Of a stretch of DNA of 64,000 bases, positions 3,432-27,893 are shown in pieces. The DNA lies in contig JADBKN010000008.1 of NCBI GenBank assembly GCA_014896375.1, positions 1-64,000 of the forward strand. Reading direction: 5' to 3'. Each line of letters opens with the position of its first letter. The first letter of the stretch is position 1. Under the pieces are notes generated by a model, which did no database searches, was not told where the DNA came from, and saw only the letters and a list, made by a program, of their open reading frames with translations. The translations under genes and the position numbers were made by a program. The DNA is from Bacillota bacterium. Lineage in GTDB: Bacteria > Bacillota > Sulfobacillia > RBS10-35 > Bu92.

Positions 3432-3899
3432 GGTGACGCCTCCTTCTCCCGGTTGCCCGGCGACGGGCGTTGTTGTCGGCCGCGTCATGCTTCGGCGCGG
3501 CGTGCCTCGCCGCGGCCTATTTCGGCACGCCATTCTTCGCCACGTACAGCCGTCTTTCCCGCTCCGCCCCACCCTGCATGAATTCGCCATAACTGGGAAG
3601 GCTATCCCCACGAAGTGGGGGAGTGCCACATGGACGAACGCGAACGAAGGGGCACGGCGCCGGGGGACGCCCCTAGTGAGGTGGCGGGACGCGGAGCGGG
3701 CCAGGGGGTCCGCGGGCCTGCCGTGGACGCAGCCGCCCCCGGTGACGGCGCGGGACCGCGCGCGGGCGCCGCGGCCGGCCGGCCGCGCGACATGCGCCGC
3801 CTGCTCCCAGCACGGCCTTTGCGGATGGGAGGCGGGGCGACCGAATAGCCGGCGGGAGCCATATACTGTACCAGACGGTTGAGCGTCTGTCTGGCGAGG
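3432..3899. other. Gap upstream of spoIIID without a confident gene
   Basis: Contains two short hairpins: CGCGGCG/CGCCGCG (3496-3514, loop TGCCT), which would lie in the 5' leader of the deaminase gene, and CCCCAC/GTGGGG (3606-3620, loop GAA). A 72-codon frame from ATG 3630 to 3848 has GGGGGAG at 3616-3622 but encodes only Gly/Ala/Arg/Pro-rich sequence, so I do not call it. No spoIIQ or its remnant was seen. Confidence 0.45.
3844..3889 (+). promoter_or_regulatory. Possible sigma-E/sigma-K type promoter and start-site hairpin for spoIIID
   Basis: CATATACT at 3860-3867 fits the -10 pattern CATAYANT of sporulation sigma-E/K, with a weak -35 candidate (GAATAG, about 3843-3848) 11-13 bases upstream. 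A 6-bp hairpin CAGACG/CGTCTG (3872-3877 and 3884-3889) falls where transcription would start. spoIIID is a sigma-E gene in Bacillus, so the position is right, but the -35 match is poor. Confidence 0.35.
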
Positions 3900-4183
3900 A
3901 TGTGGCGAGGGGGCGAGGCAGTTCATGATTACATCAAGGAGCACGGGCGGTTCAGATCCGTTACCTCGTAAAGAAAAGCGCCAGACCGTCCGCGCCGTCG
4001 CCAAAGCGTTCGGCGTCTCCAAACACCGTTCACAAGGACCTCACGCAGGAACGGCTCCCCGAAATCGACGCCGAGCTGGCCCGACAGGTGAAGGAAGTAC
4101 CGAATACCACAAGGCGATCCGACACCTGCGGGGCGGAGAAGGCGACCCGCAACAAATATCGCCGCGACGGAACAGGCGCCTGA
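3900..4183 (+). pseudogene. spoIIID: spoIIID, sporulation transcription factor, broken by several frame changes
   Basis: SpoIIID is the small HTH factor that reshapes mother-cell sigma-E transcription. Recognisable SpoIIID blocks follow each other in the correct order but in different frames: HDYIKEHG (from 3924), RYLVKK (from 3959), QTVRAVAKAFGVSK (3982-4023), TVHKDLTQERLPEIDAELAR continuing QVKEV (4025-4099), EYHKAIRHLRGGE (4102-4140), then ATRNKYRRDGTGA and a stop at 4181-4183. At least five small insertions or deletions are needed to join them. The expected GTG/ATG start before HDY reads GTT (3921); an ATG at 3900 is in the same frame. The residues between the breaks are well conserved, so the damage is either very recent or an error in the sequence. 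mbl follows as in Bacillus. Confidence 0.85.
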
Positions 4184-4193
4184 AGCCTCGCCC

Positions 4194-4222
4194 TGGCCAT
4201 CGACACCCTCATCCGTTATACT
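4194..4222 (+). promoter_or_regulatory. Candidate promoter of mbl
   Basis: TATACT at 4217-4222 is a good -10 for the housekeeping sigma factor, lying in a locally AT-rich stretch (CGTTATACTAATT) 42 bases before the start codon. The -35 at 17-bp spacing (TGGCCA, 4194-4199) is weak. Confidence 0.5.
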
Positions 4223-4264
4223 AATTGGAAGCGGAGACCCCCGCCGCCCGGGAAGGGGAGAGCC

Positions 4265-5278
4265 GTGTTCCCGATGACGCGCGACATCGGCGTCGACCTC
4301 GGCACCGCGAACACGCTCGTCCATGTGCAGGGCCGCGGCATCGTGATCCGGGAGCCCTCAGTGGTCGCGCTCGACCGCGACACGCACCGTGTCCTGGCCG
4401 TGGGAGCGGAGGCCCAGCGCATGGTCGGCCGCACGCCCGGGCACATCGTGGCCGTGCGGCCGCTGCGGGACGGCGTGATCGCGGACTACGCCGCCACCCA
4501 GGCGATGTTGCGCCACTTCCTCCAGCTCGCGGCCGGCCGCCGGCCGCTCGTGCGCCCCCGCGTCATGGTCTGCGTGCCCTCCGGCGTGACGTCCGTGGAG
4601 CGGCGGGCGGTGGTGGAGTGCGCGCTGGAGGCCGGCGCGCGGCGCGCCTATCTCATCGAGGAGCCGCTGGCGGCCGCCCTGGGGGCGGGACTGCCGATCG
4701 ACGAGCCGCGCGGGTGCATGGTCGTCGACATCGGCGGCGGGACGAGCGACGTCGCCGTGCTCTCCCTGGGCGGCATCGTGACGAGCCAGTCGCTGCGGCT
4801 GGGCGGAGATCGCCTGGACGAGGCCATCGTCCGCCACATCAAGCGGGAGTGGAACCTCTTGATCGGCGAGCGCACGGCGGAAGAGGTGAAGATCCGCATC
4901 GGCACGGTGGATCCTGAGGAGAACCGCGGCACGATGGAAGTCCGCGGACGCGACGTGGTCACCGGGCTGCCGAAGGTGATCGAGATCCGCAGCGCCGACG
5001 CCTGCCGCGCGATGCAGGAGCCGATCGCGGAGCTCGTCGCCATGATCCGCCAGGTGCTGGAGCGCATGCCGCCGGAGCTGGCGGCCGACATCTTTGAGTC
5101 CGGCGTCGTGCTCACCGGGGGCGGTGCGCTGCTCAGCGGACTCGACCGCATGCTGGCGGCGGACCTCGGCGTGCCGGTGATCGTCGCCGAGGATCCGCTC
5201 TCTTGCGTGGCGAAGGGGACGGGTGTCGCGCTGGCGCGGCTGGGGCACCTGGACCACCTGTTGCAGTCCGGCCCGTGA
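4265..5278 (+). CDS. mbl: Rod-shape determining actin homolog, Mbl/MreB family
   Basis: Bacterial actin that polymerises on the inner membrane face and guides cylindrical wall synthesis. The 337-residue product has the phosphate-1 loop VDLGTANT near the N-terminus, the phosphate-2 loop VVDIGGGTSDVAVLSLGGIV and the adenosine motif VVLTGGGALLSG. Position after spoIIID points to Mbl and not MreB. GGAAGGGGAG (4251-4260) could serve GTG 4265 (close, 4 bases) or ATG 4274 (13 bases); I kept the longer form. In Bacillus the flhO-flhP pair follows, as here. Which of the three actin paralogues it is rests on context only. Confidence 0.92.
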   Translation: MFPMTRDIGVDLGTANTLVHVQGRGIVIREPSVVALDRDTHRVLAVGAEAQRMVGRTPGHIVAVRPLRDGVIADYAATQAMLRHFLQLAAGRRPLVRPRVMVCVPSGVTSVERRAVVECALEAGARRAYLIEEPLAAALGAGLPIDEPRGCMVVDIGGGTSDVAVLSLGGIVTSQSLRLGGDRLDEAIVRHIKREWNLLIGERTAEEVKIRIGTVDPEENRGTMEVRGRDVVTGLPKVIEIRSADACRAMQEPIAELVAMIRQVLERMPPELAADIFESGVVLTGGGALLSGLDRMLAADLGVPVIVAEDPLSCVAKGTGVALARLGHLDHLLQSGP

Positions 5279-5358
5279 GGCCGGGCGCCCGCCGGCCCTG
5301 GCGATGTCTCCCAAGGAAGCGGCAGGAATCCGCCGCCCCGCGGCGAATCGATGCGCGA

Positions 5359-5451
5359 ATCCCCGATAAGGGCAAACCCGGCGAAAGCCGGGGGCGCAAA
5401 GCTACGGGTCTACAGCCGCATAGGCCATGACCGCCGGGCTGCCGCAGGGAT
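5359..5451 (+). promoter_or_regulatory. Cyclic di-GMP-I (GEMM) riboswitch aptamer
   Basis: The stretch matches the class I c-di-GMP aptamer along its length: outer stem ATCCC/GGGAT (5359-5363, 5447-5451), the GGCAAACC start, a hairpin closed by a GAAA tetraloop (CGGCGAAAGCCG), the invariant GCGCAAAGC junction (5394-5402), then ACGGGTCTA and the second hairpin ending CCGCCGGGCTGCC. It sits ahead of flhO-flhP with an intrinsic terminator 10 bases downstream. CCGGGC of the aptamer (5434-5439) could pair with GCCCGG of the terminator (5469-5474), which suggests termination when ligand holds the aptamer folded; that polarity is inference. Confidence 0.93.
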
Positions 5452-5461
5452 GGAGTCTTCC

Positions 5462-5489
5462 CCCGTCGGCCCGGGCCGACGGGATTTTT
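5462..5489 (+). terminator. Riboswitch-controlled intrinsic terminator
   Basis: A perfect 22-bp palindrome, CCCGTCGGCCC then GGGCCGACGGG (5462-5483), followed by ATTTTT. It lies between the c-di-GMP aptamer and the flhO start and is the obvious expression platform. Confidence 0.9.
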
Positions 5490-5528
5490 GTCGGCGGTCG
5501 CGGCCGGGTGCGGCGGGAGGTGGAGCGG

Positions 5529-6341
5529 ATGCTGCGGGGTCTCTACACGGCCGCCAACGGCATGGTCGCGCAGAGCATGGCGGAGGCGGTGCTGGCGAAC
5601 AACCTCGCCAACCAGGAGACGCCCGGTTTCAAGCGGGCACAGCCGGCGACGGGCGCTTTTCCCTGGCAGATCGTCGTGCTGGGGGCGGGGGCGGCCGTGC
5701 CGGGGTCGACGCTTACGGCGACGGCGATGCCGGGCGCCGGCGTGGCGGCCGCCGGCGGGGCTTTCCTGGCGGCCGCGCCGAAGGCGGCGCTGGGCACAGG
5801 GGCGCTATTGGACCGCACCGGCATCGACTGGTCGGAGGGGGAGGTGGCCGCGGGCGGCCCGCTGGACGTGGCCATCGAGGGGGAGGGCTTCTTCCGCGTG
5901 GACGCCGGCGGCATGGAGCTCTACACGCGGGCCGGCACGTTCCACGTGTCCCCGCAGGGCGTGCTCGTCGACGCCGCGGGGCGCCCCGTGGAAGGAGAGT
6001 CGGGCCCCATCCGGTTGCAGGGCCGCGGCCGTGCGGCCATCCTGCCCGACGGCACGGTGATGGACGGCGACCGGCCCGCCGGGCGTCTCGCGGTGTTCAT
6101 GCCGGCGCCGGGCGCGACCGTCACGGCCGTCACCGAGGGGGCCTACGCCATCCAGGGAGGCGCACAGGCGGCGGCGGGCGCGCGGTTGCGGCCGGGCGCG
6201 GTGGAGACGTCGAACGTCGACCCGGTCCGGGAGATGACGGAGCTCATGAGCGTGGCGCGCACATACGAGGCGAGCCGCCAGGCCTTCACGGCCGAGGACC
6301 AGGCGGCGCAGCAGGCGGCGCGGGACGTCGGCCGGTACTAG
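5529..6341 (+). CDS. flhO: Flagellar hook-basal body (rod) protein, FlhO type
   Basis: Member of the FlgF/FlgG family of rod and hook proteins exported by the flagellar type III apparatus and built into the distal rod. The 270-residue product begins MLRGLYTAANGMVAQSM with the flagellar rod N-terminal signature ANNLANQETPGFKR, and ends with the family C-terminal motif ETSNVDPVREMTELM. ATG 5529 follows GGGAGGTGGAGCGG; in-frame starts further upstream would fall in the terminator. The gene follows mbl and precedes a paralogue, matching mbl-flhO-flhP of Bacillus. Transcription reaching it must pass the c-di-GMP riboswitch. Confidence 0.93.
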   Translation: MLRGLYTAANGMVAQSMAEAVLANNLANQETPGFKRAQPATGAFPWQIVVLGAGAAVPGSTLTATAMPGAGVAAAGGAFLAAAPKAALGTGALLDRTGIDWSEGEVAAGGPLDVAIEGEGFFRVDAGGMELYTRAGTFHVSPQGVLVDAAGRPVEGESGPIRLQGRGRAAILPDGTVMDGDRPAGRLAVFMPAPGATVTAVTEGAYAIQGGAQAAAGARLRPGAVETSNVDPVREMTELMSVARTYEASRQAFTAEDQAAQQAARDVGRY

Positions 6342-6476
6342 GCGCGCCGCGCGTGCGGCGGCGCCGGCACCGGGGCGCGCGTGCGCCGGCGCCCGCACCG
6401 GGACGCGCCGCAGCGCGCCGCGCAGCGGCATCAGGCAAACGGCTCAAGTGAACGGGCGAGGAGAGGGGCGAAGGCG

Positions 6477-7289
6477 ATGCTCAGCGGGATTTGGGCGTCC
6501 GCGAGCGGCCTGGCGGCCGGCAGCCTGAAGCTGGACGCGCTGGCGGACGACCTGGCGAACGTGAACACGCCTGGCTTTAAGCGGAACGTGGTGGATTTCG
6601 CGGAGGCGGAGGAGAGCGCCCGCTACCGCGCCGACCGCGCGGCTGCGGCGGCCGGGCGCGCCGGCTGGGACTGGGTCCTGCTCGGCGCCGGCGTCCGGCC
6701 GGACGGCGCGCGCCGCGACTTCGCCGCCGGGGCGCTCATGGAGACCGGCCAGCCGTTCGACCTGGCGATCCAAGGCGACGGCTTCTTCGCCGTGCGGCTG
6801 GCCGACGGGTCGATCGGGTACACGCGCGCGGGTGCCTTCCGCCTCGACGGCTCCGGGCGCCTCGTGGACCCGCAGGGCCGGCCCGTGCTCAGCGACCGCG
6901 GCACGGAGATCCGCCTGCCGGCGGGGGCGGTGGAGCCGTCCGTCGCGCCGGACGGCACGCTCACCGTGCTCGCCCCCGGGACGGGCGGCGCGGTGCAGCC
7001 GGTCACGGTGGCGCGCGTCGGCGTGGCGCTGGCGCAAGCCGACACTCTGGAGCCGTCCGAGGGCGTGTACGTCCCCGCGGCCGGCGCGGCGGCGCCGCAG
7101 CTGGGCGCGGCCGGCCAGGGAGGCCGCGGGGCGCTGGTCCAAGGGGCGCTGGAGGCTTCGAACGTGGACCTGGCGCAGGCCATGACCGGCCTCATCCTCA
7201 CGCAGCGGGCGTACGCGCTGAACGCGCGCGCGCTCTCCACGGCCGACGAGATGTGGCAGGAAGCGAACCGGCTCTACGGGTCAGCATAG
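6477..7289 (+). CDS. flhP: Flagellar hook-basal body (rod) protein, FlhP type
   Basis: Second FlgF/FlgG-family rod protein, also 270 residues. It opens MLSGIWASASGLAAGSLK with DDLANVNTPGFKRNVVDF and closes with ALEASNVDLAQAMTGLI, the two paired helices that build the rod lattice. ATG 6477 follows GAGGAGAGGGG. The 135 bases separating it from flhO are low-complexity GC-rich sequence without a clear terminator, so both are probably co-transcribed under the same riboswitch. FlhO and FlhP are distinguished only by order. Confidence 0.92.
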   Translation: MLSGIWASASGLAAGSLKLDALADDLANVNTPGFKRNVVDFAEAEESARYRADRAAAAAGRAGWDWVLLGAGVRPDGARRDFAAGALMETGQPFDLAIQGDGFFAVRLADGSIGYTRAGAFRLDGSGRLVDPQGRPVLSDRGTEIRLPAGAVEPSVAPDGTLTVLAPGTGGAVQPVTVARVGVALAQADTLEPSEGVYVPAAGAAAPQLGAAGQGGRGALVQGALEASNVDLAQAMTGLILTQRAYALNARALSTADEMWQEANRLYGSA

Positions 7290-7293
7290 GAGC

Positions 7294-8253
7294 GTGGACG
7301 AGCGGCGCGACGACGGGGCGGAGCGAGAGCGCGAGGCGGCGCCGCCGGGCGCCGGCCCGGCCGTCGTGCGCCGTTTTCAGGACGCCGCCGGCGGCGCGGC
7401 GTGGGTGGATGTCGCCGGCCTGCCGGACGCCGCGCAGGAAATGGAGATCGCCGCGCTCCTGGGCATCGAGCGCGAGACGCTGCAGCGCGCGTGGTCGCGC
7501 GGCACCTTCCCGCGCTTCCACGCGCGGGGCGACACCCTGTTCCTGCGCCTGCGGATCGCGCCGGAGGGCCGCGAGGACCGCCACGACCGCCTGCTCGCCT
7601 GGCTGCGGCCGGGGCTCCTTGTCACCTGGCACCCGCGGCCGCTGCCCTGGCTGCGCGGCGCGGAGGAGCGGCTGGCGAAGGGGCCGGCCTTCGTGTTGGA
7701 CGAGGTCATCGACCGCCTTCTGGAGCGCGAGTTCATGCGCTTTGAGGCTTGGCGCCAGCGGCTGGACCGGGTGGAGTCGATGCTCCTCGGCCGCCGGCGC
7801 GCCGCCGCCTTCCGAGAGCTCGTGGCGGCGCGGCAGGAGCTCCTGCGCCTCTCGCAGGGGGTGGAGCTGCAACACGAGGCCGTGGCCAAGCTGGCGCGCG
7901 TGGAACCGCCGCTCGTGCCGCCGGAGGCCGGGGCGCGCTTCGCCGAGCTGGCGGAGCGGGCGGCCCACAGCGCCGCCTTCGCGGCTCACGCGCGCGACAG
8001 CGTCCAGCACCTCTTCGACCTGCACACGGCCCTGGACTCCCAGCGCGCCAACGCCATCATGCAGCGGTTGACGGTCGTCACCGCCGTCTTCCTGCCCCTC
8101 ACGCTGATCACCGGCATTTACGGCATGAATTTTGACTGGATGCCGGAACTGCATTGGCACTGGGGATATCCTGCCGTGCTGCTGTTCATGGCCTCGCTCG
8201 GCACGGGGCTTTTCGTGTATTTCCGGCGCACCGGATGGTTCCGCGAGGATTGA
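7294..8253 (+). CDS. corA: CorA-family divalent cation transporter
   Basis: Homopentameric inner-membrane channel family for Mg2+ or Co2+. The 319-residue product has a soluble alpha/beta N-terminal part, a long helical stalk (about 160-255), and two C-terminal membrane helices with the selectivity motif YGMN (after LPLTLITGI). The acidic/aromatic loop after GMN is FDWMPELHW. The start is GTG 7294, only a base after AGGAG, which itself overlaps the end of flhP; this suggests tight coupling but leaves the start uncertain. A second CorA-like gene lies at 60.96 kb and shares the general plan. Ion specificity cannot be read from the sequence. Confidence 0.88.
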   Translation: MDERRDDGAEREREAAPPGAGPAVVRRFQDAAGGAAWVDVAGLPDAAQEMEIAALLGIERETLQRAWSRGTFPRFHARGDTLFLRLRIAPEGREDRHDRLLAWLRPGLLVTWHPRPLPWLRGAEERLAKGPAFVLDEVIDRLLEREFMRFEAWRQRLDRVESMLLGRRRAAAFRELVAARQELLRLSQGVELQHEAVAKLARVEPPLVPPEAGARFAELAERAAHSAAFAAHARDSVQHLFDLHTALDSQRANAIMQRLTVVTAVFLPLTLITGIYGMNFDWMPELHWHWGYPAVLLFMASLGTGLFVYFRRTGWFRED

Positions 8254-8285
8254 GTTTCCTCCCCAAAAGTAGACAAGCCGCGTGC

Positions 8286-8291
8286 TATACT
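8286..8291 (+). promoter_or_regulatory. Extended -10 promoter of the BMP operon
   Basis: TATACT at 8286-8291 preceded by TGC, giving TGCTATACT, an extended -10 element. No -35 at the usual distance: TAGACA at 8270-8275 is only 10 bases away. Start codon lies 39 bases downstream. Confidence 0.5.
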
Positions 8292-8329
8292 TGCGCTGGC
8301 AACGACTCTGCCAAGGGGAGGAACTCTGC

Positions 8330-9436
8330 GTGAGGATCAAGCGCTTGGCGGTTGCGGCGCTGCTCGTCCTGGCGCTCGTCGCCGTGGCGGCTTGCGGCGG
8401 CACGGCGAAGAACACCGGCACACAGACAGCCAGCGAGAGCGGCTCCGAGCAGGGCCAGGGCGGCAAGGTCATCAAGGTCGGCCTTGTGACGGACGTCGGC
8501 GGCCTCGATGACCACGGCTTCAACGAGCTGGCGTACAAGGGCCTCCAGAAGGCGGCCCAGGATCTCGGCGTCCAGGTGAACGTCGTCCAGTCCAAGCAGC
8601 AGTCGGACTACATCCCGAACCTGACGAACTTCGCCAACCAGGGCTATGACCTCGTCATCGCCGTCGGCTTCCTCATGACGGACGCCGTGCACCAGGTGGC
8701 GCCGCAGTTCCCGAACACGAAGTTCGGCATCATCGATGTGGACTACAACAGCGTCGTGACCGACTCCGGCCAGGACGCGAACGCGGACAAGAGCAAGTAC
8801 GCGAACGTCGCCGGCACGATCTTCAAGACGGAGCAGTGCGGCTACCTCGCCGGCGTGCTGGCCGGGCTTGTGGAGAAGAACAACGCGCTTCCGGGCCTGC
8901 AGGGCAAGAACACGGTCGGCGTCGTCGGCGGCATCGCCATTCCGCCGGTGGACAGCTACATCGCGGGCTTCCAGCAGGGCGTGAAGGCCGTCAACCCGGA
9001 CGCGAAGGTGCTGCTTGAGTACGCCAACGCCTTCGACAACCCGCAGGGCGGCAAGGAGATCGCCCTGGCGGAGTATGCGCAGGGTGCGGACATCGTGTTC
9101 CAGGTCGCGGGCGGCACGGGCCTCGGCGTGATCGACGCGGCCAAGGAGAAGCACCTGTACGCGATCGGCGTCGACGCGGACCAGAACTACCTGGGTCCGG
9201 ACAACGTGATCACCAGCGCCATGAAGGGCGTCGACACGGCGACCTACCAGCTGATCAAGGCGGTCGTGGACGGCACCTTCAAGGCCGGCGACTTCACGTT
9301 CGACCTGGCGAACGGCGGCGTGGGGCTGGGCGTCTTCGCCAAGTCCGTGCCGCAGGACATCATCGACCAGGTCAACCAGGCGGCCGAGGACATCAAGGCC
9401 GGCAAGATCCAGATCTCGGCCCAGGTGCAGAAGTAA
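8330..9436 (+). CDS. BMP/PnrA-family nucleoside-binding lipoprotein
   Basis: Substrate-binding lipoprotein of an ABC importer; the BMP family typically binds purine nucleosides. The 368-residue product has a Lys/Arg start (RIKRL), a hydrophobic helix and the lipobox VAAC at about residues 20-23, then a Ser/Gly/Gln-rich linker and two lobes with family blocks KVGLVTDVGGLDDHGFN, GYDLVIAVGFL and GVDADQNYLGPDNV. GTG 8330 is placed by GGGGAGG (8316-8322). It heads an operon with the ATPase and two permeases. The ligand call is from family knowledge. Confidence 0.93.
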   Translation: MRIKRLAVAALLVLALVAVAACGGTAKNTGTQTASESGSEQGQGGKVIKVGLVTDVGGLDDHGFNELAYKGLQKAAQDLGVQVNVVQSKQQSDYIPNLTNFANQGYDLVIAVGFLMTDAVHQVAPQFPNTKFGIIDVDYNSVVTDSGQDANADKSKYANVAGTIFKTEQCGYLAGVLAGLVEKNNALPGLQGKNTVGVVGGIAIPPVDSYIAGFQQGVKAVNPDAKVLLEYANAFDNPQGGKEIALAEYAQGADIVFQVAGGTGLGVIDAAKEKHLYAIGVDADQNYLGPDNVITSAMKGVDTATYQLIKAVVDGTFKAGDFTFDLANGGVGLGVFAKSVPQDIIDQVNQAAEDIKAGKIQISAQVQK

Positions 9437-13284: not shown

Positions 13285-13328
13285 GACAGCCGATCTACGG
13301 CTTGGAGCTTGACATTTCAACAGGACGT

Positions 13329-13438
13329 TCATCGAGAGCGGGCGGAGGGGACTGGCCCAAGGAAGCCCCGGCAACCGGTGGACACACGGTGCCAAACCCA
13401 GCAGATGGGACGCGTTCAAGCTCCAATCTGAAGGATGA
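13329..13438 (+). promoter_or_regulatory. SAM-I riboswitch (S-box)
   Basis: The core matches the S-box aptamer: outer stem TCATC/GATGA (13329-13333, 13434-13438), CGAGAGCGGGCGGAGGG, ACTGGCCC, GAAGCCCCGGCAACC, and GGTGCCAAACCCAGCAG. An antiterminator strand CCAATCTGAAGG (13423-13434) complements CCTTCAAATTGG (13456-13467) of the terminator at 11 of 12 positions. SAM binding holds the outer stem and frees the terminator, so metK is turned off when SAM is plentiful. Confidence 0.95.
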
Positions 13439-13451
13439 CCGGACGGATCAG

Positions 13452-14791: not shown

Positions 14792-15256
14792 TTGGTCTGG
14801 ATCGCGCTGGCCGCGGCCATCCTGGTGTACGCGGCGGCGGACCTGTGGCTGCGCTGGCGCCGCCGCCGCCAGGTCCGCGTGCTCCTCTTGGTGGGGGCGG
14901 GGACAGAGGACGCGCTCGAAGGCGTGCTGCGCGCGGCGGCGGCCCTGGTGGGCGGCGTGAGCGGGGGGCGTCTCGTGGCGGTGGTGGAGCGCCCGGCGCA
15001 CCCTTCGCCGGAGTGGGCCGCCATGCTGCGCGCGCTGGGGCGCGCGCTGCCAGGCGTGCGGCTCCACGCCGCGCCCCACGGCGCCGACCTCCTTGTGAGC
15101 GGCCTGGCGGCGGCCGGTGGGCGCGTCGACGTGGTCCTGAGCTTCGACGGCCGCCAGACGCTGCCCGCCTGGCTCCGGGACGCGCGGCGGCTCTTGCGGG
15201 CGACGGCGAAGGCGAGAGAGGAAGGAACAGGAAAGCGCGGACGGGGGGCGAATTAA
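14792..15256 (+). CDS. Small membrane-anchored hypothetical protein
   Basis: About 154 residues. One N-terminal membrane helix (ALAAAILVYAAADLWLRW) followed by basic residues and a soluble part that looks like an alpha/beta fold (VRVLLLVGAGTEDALEGVL, VDVVLSFDGRQTLP). TTG 14792 is the first plausible start after the hairpin, but has only a poor ribosome-binding site; the open frame extends upstream into metK. It sits between metK and the diguanylate cyclase. I do not recognise the family. The Arg-rich tail (about 135-154) is probably cytoplasmic. Confidence 0.6.
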   Translation: MVWIALAAAILVYAAADLWLRWRRRRQVRVLLLVGAGTEDALEGVLRAAAALVGGVSGGRLVAVVERPAHPSPEWAAMLRALGRALPGVRLHAAPHGADLLVSGLAAAGGRVDVVLSFDGRQTLPAWLRDARRLLRATAKAREEGTGKRGRGAN

Positions 15257-15292: not shown

Positions 15293-16903
15293 TTGTTCAG
15301 GGATCGATCCGTCGCTCATCTTTATGAGACGACCGTCAACGTCACGGGCCTGGCGCTGCTCGCGGGGCTCGTCTTCGCCATGCCGCCGTCTCCGTGGTTC
15401 GTCCTCTTCGCCGCGCTCGCCGCGGCGGCGGACTACTGGAACTTCCGCACGCCCTTCGGCTACGTGTCGTTCAGTTTCGCCCTCACGCTGCCGGCGGAGG
15501 TGCTCTACGGCCCGAGCACCGCGGCGCTCGTCTGCGCGCTCGGCAACATCGCCGGCAACACCATTCCCCTGCGCCGCCCGGCGCGCATCGGCGCCTTCAA
15601 CGCGGCGCAGTTCACCCTCAGCGTCTTCTGCGGCTGGCTGGCGCAGGAAGGCGTGGCGCGTCTCGTGCAGACGGGGCCTGCGGCCCTCGTGGCGCCCTAC
15701 GTCGCCTTTGTGGCGGTTTTCTTCGTCGTCAACAATTCCCTCGTGGCGTGCATGGTGTCCCTGGAACATGGGCTGCCGCTGCGCTCGGTCACGGCGCACC
15801 TGCACTGGGAGGCGTTCGCCCACCTGGTCACGGCCGTGTTGGGGACGATGTTCATCGTCGTGGAGCGCACCAGCGGCACGCTCACGGCGCTACTCGCCGT
15901 GGTGCCGGCCCTGGCGCTCTCGTATCTCCTGAACGTCCAGCACCGCCTGGACACGCGCAACCGGGAGCTGGAGGCGCTCTATGACGCCTCCCAGTCGCTC
16001 GCCGGCTCCCTCAACTGGGACACGGTGTGCGAGGTCGTCGTGCGCTCCTCGGCGCGCCTCGCGAGCGCGAGCCGTGCGGAGCTCTGGGTGGCCAGCGAGG
16101 ACGGGAAGTGGCTGATGAGCGCGGCCGTCTTCGGCCCGGGCGAAGCGGCGGCGCTGGGCACGCAGATCGCCGCCGGGGAAGGCGTGGTCGGACAAGCCTT
16201 CGTGAGAGGGGAGTCCGGCCTCGAGCGGCTCCGCGGCCCGGACGGGCACGCGCGCCACATCCTGGCCGTGCCGCTCGTGCACGGGGAGACGCGCCTCGGC
16301 GTGCTGGAGCTCGAGGCACGCCAACCCTTCAGCGACGACCACCGCCGTCTCCTCTCCATCCTCTCGCCCCAGGTGGCGAGCGCCCTGCGCAACGTCATGC
16401 AGTACCGGGAGACGGAGCAGCAGGCGCAGACAGACCCCATGACCGGGCTCGCCAACTTCCGGCGCTTCTCCACGGAGCTGCCGCGCAAGCTGGAGGCGGC
16501 CTCGCAGGCGGGGCAGCCGCTGGCGCTCGTCTACCTCGACCTCGACAATTTCCGGGACTTCAACAACCGTTTCGGGCACCAGGTGGGCGACGAGGTTCTG
16601 CGCTCGTTCGCCCGCATCCTCCTCGACTCCGTCCGTCAGGGCGATCTCGTCGCCCGCTACGGCGGGGACGAGTTCGTCATCGTGCTCCCCGGCGCCGGCC
16701 CCGAGGAGGCCGCGGCCGTCGTGGACCGCATCCTGCAGCGCGTGCACCGGCTGCGGATCAACGTCGGCTCCAACGTGTCGCCCACCCTGGCGGTGAGCGC
16801 CGGCTTCGCCGTGTACCCGGAGGACGGGCGGGACGCCGACCACCTCATCCGCACCGCAGATGAGGCCATGTACCGGCAAAAGCGCCGCTTCGGAGCCGGG
16901 TGA
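15293..16903 (+). CDS. Membrane GAF-GGDEF diguanylate cyclase
   Basis: Synthesises cyclic di-GMP from two GTP. The 536-residue product has an N-terminal region of about six membrane helices (1-215), a GAF-type sensor (about 240-370) and a GGDEF domain (about 380-535). The active-site loop RYGGDEF is intact (GGDEF at 457-461) and the inhibitory site RQGD lies exactly five residues before it, so feedback inhibition is expected. The membrane part shares the pattern F-x-V-N-x3-V-x2-MVSL-x-H with the HD-GYP protein at 26.5 kb. TTG 15293 is the assumed start and is uncertain. The gene overlaps comFC by one base (TGATG). Confidence 0.92.
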   Translation: MFRDRSVAHLYETTVNVTGLALLAGLVFAMPPSPWFVLFAALAAAADYWNFRTPFGYVSFSFALTLPAEVLYGPSTAALVCALGNIAGNTIPLRRPARIGAFNAAQFTLSVFCGWLAQEGVARLVQTGPAALVAPYVAFVAVFFVVNNSLVACMVSLEHGLPLRSVTAHLHWEAFAHLVTAVLGTMFIVVERTSGTLTALLAVVPALALSYLLNVQHRLDTRNRELEALYDASQSLAGSLNWDTVCEVVVRSSARLASASRAELWVASEDGKWLMSAAVFGPGEAAALGTQIAAGEGVVGQAFVRGESGLERLRGPDGHARHILAVPLVHGETRLGVLELEARQPFSDDHRRLLSILSPQVASALRNVMQYRETEQQAQTDPMTGLANFRRFSTELPRKLEAASQAGQPLALVYLDLDNFRDFNNRFGHQVGDEVLRSFARILLDSVRQGDLVARYGGDEFVIVLPGAGPEEAAAVVDRILQRVHRLRINVGSNVSPTLAVSAGFAVYPEDGRDADHLIRTADEAMYRQKRRFGAG

Positions 16904-26495: not shown

Positions 26496-27893
26496 TTGCA
26501 ACCCTCGATCCACCGTCATCATTACACGCTACTTGTGGCGCTGGTGCTGGCGGACGCCGCCGCGGCCGCCTGGCTCTGGGACCCCTCGGTGCTCCTCGCC
26601 TGGCCGCTCTGGGCGCTCGTGGCCCTCACGGCCGTGGCGGAGGCGCTGCCGGTGGAGCTGCCGCAGGGCCGCGGTTCGGTGTCTGTGAGCTTCCCGCTGA
26701 TCTTCACCTCGTCGATGGTGCTCGGTCCATTCGCCGGCTTCGTCGTCGGCCTGCTCGGCACGCTTACGGCGGACGAGCTCCGCGGCCGCGTCCCCTGGCT
26801 GCGCATGGCGCTGAACCACCTGCAGCTGGCGCTGGCGGGCGCCGTCTCCGGGCTCGCGTACGTGTCTTTGGAGCGGCTCTGGGGCTCCCCATTGGGCGTG
26901 TGGACAGGGCTCCTGGCGGGAGGATTGCTCTACTTCATCGTCAACGCCGGGAGCGTATCTTTGATGGTGTCGCTGTACCATCGGATGTCGGTCCTACACT
27001 ATTTCAAGTCCAGCGTATTGGGCACGGTACCCAACTACCTCGCCCTCATCCCGATCTCCTACGTGATGGCCTCCGTGTACCAGTCGCTGGGCGTGGCCGC
27101 GCTCGCCGTCTTCTTCCTGCCGCTCCTTGTGGCGCGCCAGTCGTTCAAGCTCTATTCGGAGATGCGCCAGTCCTACCGGGAGATGATCGTCGCGCTCACG
27201 CGGGCGCTGGAGGCCAAGGACCCGTACACGGCCGGCCACGCGGAGCGCGTGAGCGGCATCGCCGTGCACCTGGGCAAGGTCATGGAGATGCCGGAGGAGG
27301 ACCTCGAGATCCTGGAGATCGTCGGGCTCCTGCACGACATCGGCAAGATCGCCGTGCCGGACTCCATCCTCAACAAGCGCGGCCGGCTCACGCCGGAAGA
27401 GTACGCACTCATGAAGAAGCACCCGGTGACGGGGCATGAGATCGTCCGCAACATCCACTTCCTGGGGAAGGGCCAGGAGTGGGTGCTGCACCACCACGAG
27501 CACTGGGACGGCCGCGGCTACCCGGACGGCCTGGCCGGGGAGGCGATCCCGCTGGGCGCGCGCGTGCTCTCCATCGCCGACGCCGCGGACGCGATGCTCT
27601 CCGACCGGCCCTACCGCCGCGCCATGCGGCTCATCGAGGCCTGCCGCCAGCTCGCGCGCGCGAGCGGCGAGCAGTACGACCCGACCGTCCTGCGCCGCTT
27701 CTTCGAGCTCTGCGCCGACGAGCGCTTCGCCAAGGAGATCCTGCGCCAGCCGGCGCCGATCTCCGCGGCGGAGCTGGGGGAGCTCATCGCTCTACCGGAG
27801 ATGGCGGCGGCACGCCGCGAGGCGGCCGCGGCGCGGCCGCGGGACTCCGCGCCCGCGGACGGCGGGGCGCCGGAAGGCTCCGAGCGCGCATGA
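26496..27893 (+). CDS. Membrane HD-GYP phosphodiesterase
   Basis: Hydrolyses cyclic di-GMP. The 465-residue product has a membrane region of about six helices (1-215) and a complete HD-GYP domain (about 230-410): EAKDPYTAGHAERV, LLHDIGKIAVPD with His280-Asp281, HHEHWDGRGYPDG with GYP at 341-343, and SIADAADAMLSDRPYR. TTG 26496 follows GGATAGGAGGCGC. Its membrane domain shares F-x-V-N-x3-V-x2-MVSL-x-H with the GGDEF protein at 15.3 kb. The C-terminal 60 residues are Ala/Arg-rich. Overlaps the next gene by ATGA. Confidence 0.93.
   Translation: MQPSIHRHHYTLLVALVLADAAAAAWLWDPSVLLAWPLWALVALTAVAEALPVELPQGRGSVSVSFPLIFTSSMVLGPFAGFVVGLLGTLTADELRGRVPWLRMALNHLQLALAGAVSGLAYVSLERLWGSPLGVWTGLLAGGLLYFIVNAGSVSLMVSLYHRMSVLHYFKSSVLGTVPNYLALIPISYVMASVYQSLGVAALAVFFLPLLVARQSFKLYSEMRQSYREMIVALTRALEAKDPYTAGHAERVSGIAVHLGKVMEMPEEDLEILEIVGLLHDIGKIAVPDSILNKRGRLTPEEYALMKKHPVTGHEIVRNIHFLGKGQEWVLHHHEHWDGRGYPDGLAGEAIPLGARVLSIADAADAMLSDRPYRRAMRLIEACRQLARASGEQYDPTVLRRFFELCADERFAKEILRQPAPISAAELGELIALPEMAAARREAAAARPRDSAPADGGAPEGSERA

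Follow-up and report, generated by a model that had tools for sequence, protein, structure and literature searches.

A predicted c-di-GMP-I riboswitch in the leader of the flagellar rod genes flhO-flhP of a Bacillota bacterium

We found that the leader of flhO-flhP, in a 64,000-nucleotide stretch of DNA from a Bacillota bacterium (hereafter the window), contains a complete class-I c-di-GMP aptamer, an intrinsic terminator and an antiterminator, and by computation on the sequence the terminator and the antiterminator are mutually exclusive. From its folding, we consider it probable (at roughly 0.8) that this element is a transcriptional OFF switch for flhO-flhP resembling Cd1 of C. difficile. 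Control of these genes by a riboswitch had been proposed in the initial annotation, and is supported, with a class-I aptamer and mutually exclusive terminator and antiterminator (Table 1).

Table 1 Features of the flhO-flhP locus and c-di-GMP enzymes within the window
Feature	Position	Strand	Details and basis
mbl (MreB/Mbl family), upstream gene	4265..5278	+	Pfam PF06723, E 4e-141; NCBIfam MreB models
Candidate sigma-H-type promoter	5322..5350	+	-35 GCAGGAATC 5322-5330, 11-nt spacer, -10 GGCGAATCG 5342-5350
Class-I c-di-GMP aptamer	5361..5447	+	P1 5362-5365/5443-5447, P2 5377-5392, P3 5400-5440
G, equivalent of Vc2 G20, ligand contact	5371	+	Invariant G in alignment of 25 aptamers
A, equivalent of Vc2 A47, stacks between ligand guanines; G in RF03167 consensus	5398	+	
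CC, one of the two Cs equivalent to Vc2 C92	5442..5443	+	Rfam match and alignment
Predicted antiterminator	5434..5474	+	5434-5450 paired with 5459-5474, 14 pairs; folding
Predicted intrinsic terminator	5462..5489	+	Stem 5462-5483, then ATTTTT; folding; stem kept in sister species
Shine-Dalgarno GGGAGGTGG of flhO	5515..5523	+	Sequence
flhO (FlgF/G-type distal rod protein)	5529..6341	+	Pfam; NCBIfam FlgEFG subfamily
flhP (FlgG-type distal rod protein)	6477..7289	+	Pfam; NCBIfam FlgEFG subfamily
GAF-GGDEF protein (diguanylate cyclase)	15293..16900		Intact GGDEF motif; open frame 15293-16903
HD-GYP protein	26496..27890		HDIGK and HHEHWDGRGYP

Gene content of the locus

Both rod proteins scored above the NCBIfam cut-off for the FlgEFG subfamily and below the cut-offs of the flgF and flgG equivalogs (the best equivalog for FlhO was flgF), and the names FlhO and FlhP therefore rest on family and on position by mbl, which the flhO-flhP genes of B. 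subtilis also follow. The flhO-flhP operon of B. subtilis likewise encodes distal rod proteins (PMC12153297) and its flhO is counted among the SigD-controlled genes (PMC5540618). The available excerpts of these two papers mention no riboswitch for the B. subtilis genes, whereas one is predicted in the window leader.

The aptamer starts 83 nt past the mbl stop codon and ends approximately 80 nt before the flhO start. It had been suggested that the element insulates the mbl message; we rejected this claim, as the terminator lies about 180 nt past the mbl stop, is conditional and is predicted to be absent at low c-di-GMP, a separate candidate promoter serves the leader, and a hairpin just 3' of mbl has no T-run. 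Immediately upstream of mbl, a spoIIID-like gene (3890-4130) is broken by frameshifts into pieces in three frames; the frame is open in the sister species (L072), so the copy in the window is a pseudogene unless the assembly is wrong at this point.

Identity of the aptamer

Only one class-I c-di-GMP aptamer was found by Rfam in the window. It was matched by RF03167 (c-di-GMP-I-GGC) at 5362-5447 with 78 bits and E 8.3e-17 (cmscan of the window) and by RF01051 (c-di-GMP-I, or GEMM-I) at 5361-5446 with 80.2 bits and E 2.9e-16 (search of the whole genome), above the gathering cut-offs of 59 and 35 bits respectively. These scores confirm the complete aptamer of the initial annotation, in which a covariance search with the Rfam GEMM model had been put forward as a check. 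The match and its conservation are not due to chance; the aptamer alone is no more stable than shuffled sequences (folding z -0.56). The aptamer type is known and ordinary, and the RNA itself is not new.

Vc2 numbering was placed on window positions using what we take to be the Vc2 sequence together with the Rfam consensus line. According to the available excerpts, the ligand contacts of Vc2 are G20, A47 and C92 (PMC4744006), with A47 stacked between the two guanines of the ligand (PMC9049102). All of these positions are retained in the Rfam match and the alignment (G5371, A5398 and C5442/C5443), and the A at the A47 position and the G at the G20 position were present in 25/25 aligned aptamers.

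Terminator, antiterminator and predicted polarity

The terminator hairpin comprises 9 bp with a CCGG loop, followed by ATTTTTG (dG -19.6). 4/200 dinucleotide shuffles fold equally well, and the same hairpin-plus-T energy was reached in 26/500 mononucleotide shuffles of the leader; because the DNA is GC-rich and so many shuffles match its energy, the terminator taken alone is only modestly beyond chance. Its earlier description as a perfect terminator is apt for the stem. The alternative pairing proposed between 5434-5439 (CCGGGC) and 5469-5474 (GCCCGG) is exactly complementary, and forms part of the longer antiterminator of 14 pairs (dG -23.5), which 2/200 shuffles equal. By taking up the 3' strand of both P3 and P1, the antiterminator destroys these helices; the terminator shares no bases with the aptamer, and the two can coexist.

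With the 3' arm of the terminator still absent (transcript end 5474), the antiterminator was ahead of the aptamer by 8.3 kcal/mol. In constrained ensembles without ligand its lead over the combination of aptamer and terminator was 5.2 kcal/mol at end 5484, and ligand-free leads of 6.8-6.9 and 2.6-5.0 kcal/mol were obtained at ends 5488-5492 and 5494-5498; these energies describe secondary structure only, with tertiary docking, ligand, Mg2+ and transcription speed lying outside the model. As the antiterminator is favoured in folding and destroys P1 and P3, we read the element as an OFF switch. At low c-di-GMP, the aptamer 3' strand (P3/P1, 5434-5450) would pair with the terminator's 5' arm (5459-5474), which would prevent the hairpin from forming and allow the distal-rod genes to be transcribed. 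With c-di-GMP bound, P1 and P3 would be held and the antiterminator precluded, so that the 5462-5483 hairpin could form and RNA polymerase would halt before flhO; high c-di-GMP would consequently block distal-rod synthesis, and the proximal rod would be blocked in the same way by a further class-I switch that this genome has upstream of flgB.

The layout is that of Cd1, in that the terminator is separate from the aptamer and the antiterminator draws on the aptamer 3' strand. The excerpts available to us describe Cd1 as an OFF switch in vitro and in vivo (PMC6366702) whose aptamer and terminator share no bases, in contrast to the ON switch pilM, where the two are mutually exclusive (PMC9262584). 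Cd1 and the window element thus have in common a class-I aptamer, an intrinsic terminator, an antiterminator formed from the aptamer 3' strand, a flagellar target and OFF polarity, predicted in our case. Unlike Cd1, the window element has flhO-flhP beside mbl as its target, a locus distinct from the flgB operon, where this genome has another copy, and the leader appears to begin at a sigma-H-type promoter.

A candidate sigma-H-type promoter

The class to which this genome belongs consists of spore-forming Bacillota, and sigma-H is the sigma factor which leads into sporulation; its promoters have spacers of 11-12 nt. Between mbl and the aptamer we found what looks like a sigma-H-type promoter belonging to the leader itself, with a spacer of 11 nt and 12/15 matches to the consensus RNAGGAWWW / RNNGAATWW (PMC8510167, in excerpt), a score which 0/1000 shuffles reached. 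Across the 64 kb, the score of 12/15 was reached by 14 rows on the + strand (including 5322-5350) and by 8 on the - strand. The position of the motif would put the transcription start at the aptamer's 5' edge. No sigma-70-type promoter was found in a scan of 4200-8400, and a best-hexamer promoter scan gave no candidate in the window leader.

It should be noted that the motif was first noticed by eye while reading leaders and that the subsequent tests are post hoc, the more independent checks being a de novo count of gapped pairs and spoVG, which sigma-H controls in B. subtilis. AGGA followed by GAAT was among the top gapped pairs de novo, occurring in 15/24 flhO loci against a maximum of 7 in 30 shuffled sets, and upstream of spoVG, our positive control, the spacing was 21 nt in 15/28 loci and 22 nt in 11/28. 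A start distance of 21 nt from AGGA to GAA was present in 19/24 flhO leaders (next best distance in 3; shuffle mean 0.25) and 17/26 flgB leaders (next best in 5; shuffle mean 0.32), compared with 149/20000 windows of 96 nt drawn at random from these loci. FlhO loci lacking the aptamer had this spacing in 2/21 cases (200 nt searched). Among other riboswitch leaders 4/20 carried the motif, three of these four upstream of flgB, a count which is only rough since leaders were labelled by a shared 30-mer, which put several flgB leaders under the wrong label. The sigH gene scored above cut-off in 57/61 genomes, including this one.

Distribution of the switch across the class

We compared this genome with 60 relatives (61 genomes in total), of which 58 contained RF01051 matches and 45 contained FlhO homologues at E ≤ 1e-15. 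A c-di-GMP-I aptamer was found by Rfam scan in 23 of the 44 FlhO loci besides the window (24/45 with it, leaving 21/45 without), a share which may be a lower bound because the denominator may include FlgF/FlgG paralogues. All 24 aptamers precede FlhO in the same orientation, and Mbl was upstream in 26 of the 44 loci. Within 80 FlhO-family loci from named genomes only two had the aptamer, both from members of this class, and none was seen outside it.

Strong hairpin-plus-T terminators (dG ≤ -17) were present in 16/24 leaders compared with 22/480 shuffles; a laxer threshold had been passed by 124/240 dinucleotide shuffles, and was replaced by stricter thresholds and mononucleotide shuffles. Antiterminator complementarity exceeded 95% of platform shuffles in only 8/24 loci, ranking 20/300 in the window and 87/300 in the sister species. 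No terminator was found in the flhO leaders of two relatives from one genus (L074 and L077). Since their Shine-Dalgarno region is instead folded into a stem, the predicted structures suggest translational platforms with the same aptamer and logic, and a change from transcriptional to translational control is likely in these two.

The bacterium's own genome contains four class-I aptamers. Besides that in the window, one is upstream of flgB (contig C14), approximately 20 kb from a FliA/sigma-D gene on the same strand (C14:19729-20406). Another (contig C65; L068 6485-6569) precedes a TPR-HD_5 protein. Since the HD_5 family includes HD-GYP-type phosphodiesterases, this aptamer may provide feedback control of an enzyme that degrades c-di-GMP. 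The last (contig C56; L070 6598-6687) is upstream of a 466-aa protein with no Pfam or NCBIfam match. Using a model built here, none of whose building sequences came from the loci searched, we found the aptamer in 25/30 flgB loci of relatives. In one relative (G013) two class-I aptamers stand in tandem upstream of flgB (L215 2008-2308).

Alternative readings

The best Rfam label by E-value is RF03167, which might indicate that the aptamer prefers another ligand, either as a member of the 'GGC' variant class or by binding 3',3'-cGAMP. We think this very unlikely. By bit score RF01051 leads, and the window, while passing the RF03167 cut-off, has A5398 where the RF03167 consensus has G and the RF01051 consensus has A; the G at the A47 position, which judging by the RF03167 consensus line defines c-di-GMP-I-GGC, is absent, and we rejected this subclass. 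Preference for cGAMP accompanies A at G20, whereas every aligned aptamer has G there. As A5398 and the G20 position are kept and RF01051 scores higher in bits, we conclude that the aptamer is canonical c-di-GMP-I, which should bind c-di-GMP; its match to RF01051 reveals no defining difference. An Rfam subclass label can therefore mislead on ligand if the deciding nucleotide is left unchecked. The sign of the response also has to be weighed, as class-I switches of either sign are known (PMC9262584, PMC6366702) and polarity is not transferable between species, Bc2 of B. thuringiensis being an ON switch (PMC6366702, all in excerpt). An ON switch of the kind seen in Bc2 or in pilM, which senses cGAMP, where ligand binding would promote read-through, is nevertheless improbable here, given that the terminator leaves the aptamer 3' strand unused and is compatible with the aptamer, that the antiterminator disrupts the aptamer and is the favoured fold in the absence of ligand, and that Cd1, the known flagellar case, is OFF (PMC6366702); folding and this precedent led us to reject it as the main reading. 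That the riboswitch is degenerate seems hardly credible: the frameshifted spoIIID nearby could mean that the locus is partly decayed, but the conserved aptamer positions are kept, as is the terminator stem in the sister species.

A more substantial, though still unlikely, alternative to promoter use is that most transcription of the leader comes from mbl by read-through, with the sigma-H-type motif left unused. The short distance from mbl to the aptamer and the imperfect window motif are in its favour, as is the 21-nt spacing in the 96 nt upstream of Mbl in 9/26 relative loci, which makes this region an unclean negative control and suggests that sigma-H may also drive mbl itself in some members of the class. 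Against the read-through alternative are the frequency of the spacing in flhO and flgB leaders relative to random windows and the start expected at the aptamer edge. We favour a leader whose transcription would begin at a sigma-H-type promoter of its own, immediately 5' of the aptamer.

Significance for rod gene control

Taking the two loci together, we lean slightly towards a class-wide arrangement in which both the flgB operon and flhO-flhP are under a sigma-H start stacked with a c-di-GMP cut-off of their leaders. If true, assembly of the rod would depend on the decision for stationary phase and sporulation, with the biofilm signal able to veto it, in contrast to B. subtilis, where flhO is left to sigma-D. 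Neither flhO-flhP as a riboswitch target nor sigma-H/c-di-GMP wiring of flagellar rod genes was found described in the open-licence PMC literature (titles and abstract starts), and repeated use of the aptamer on rod genes behind a sigma-H-type promoter in this little-known group appears to be undescribed. What would matter is the wiring: a second-messenger switch present at each of the two rod loci in many families of the class, in combination with the promoter, offers a way to test directly whether flagellum assembly is linked to c-di-GMP and to entry into sporulation.

Other c-di-GMP and riboswitch features of the window

The c-di-GMP synthase and hydrolase which the initial annotation placed in the window correspond to the GAF-GGDEF and HD-GYP proteins and are confirmed by the motifs listed in Table 1. 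The highest-scoring sigma-H-type match in the window (14/15) lies at 15227-15255, approximately 40 nt upstream of the GAF-GGDEF frame. A SAM riboswitch (RF00162, 70 bits) was found at 13326-13441, upstream of metK, and SAM riboswitches also occur downstream of flhO-flhP in several relatives (L090, L091, L093, L094, L098, L099, L101 and L112).
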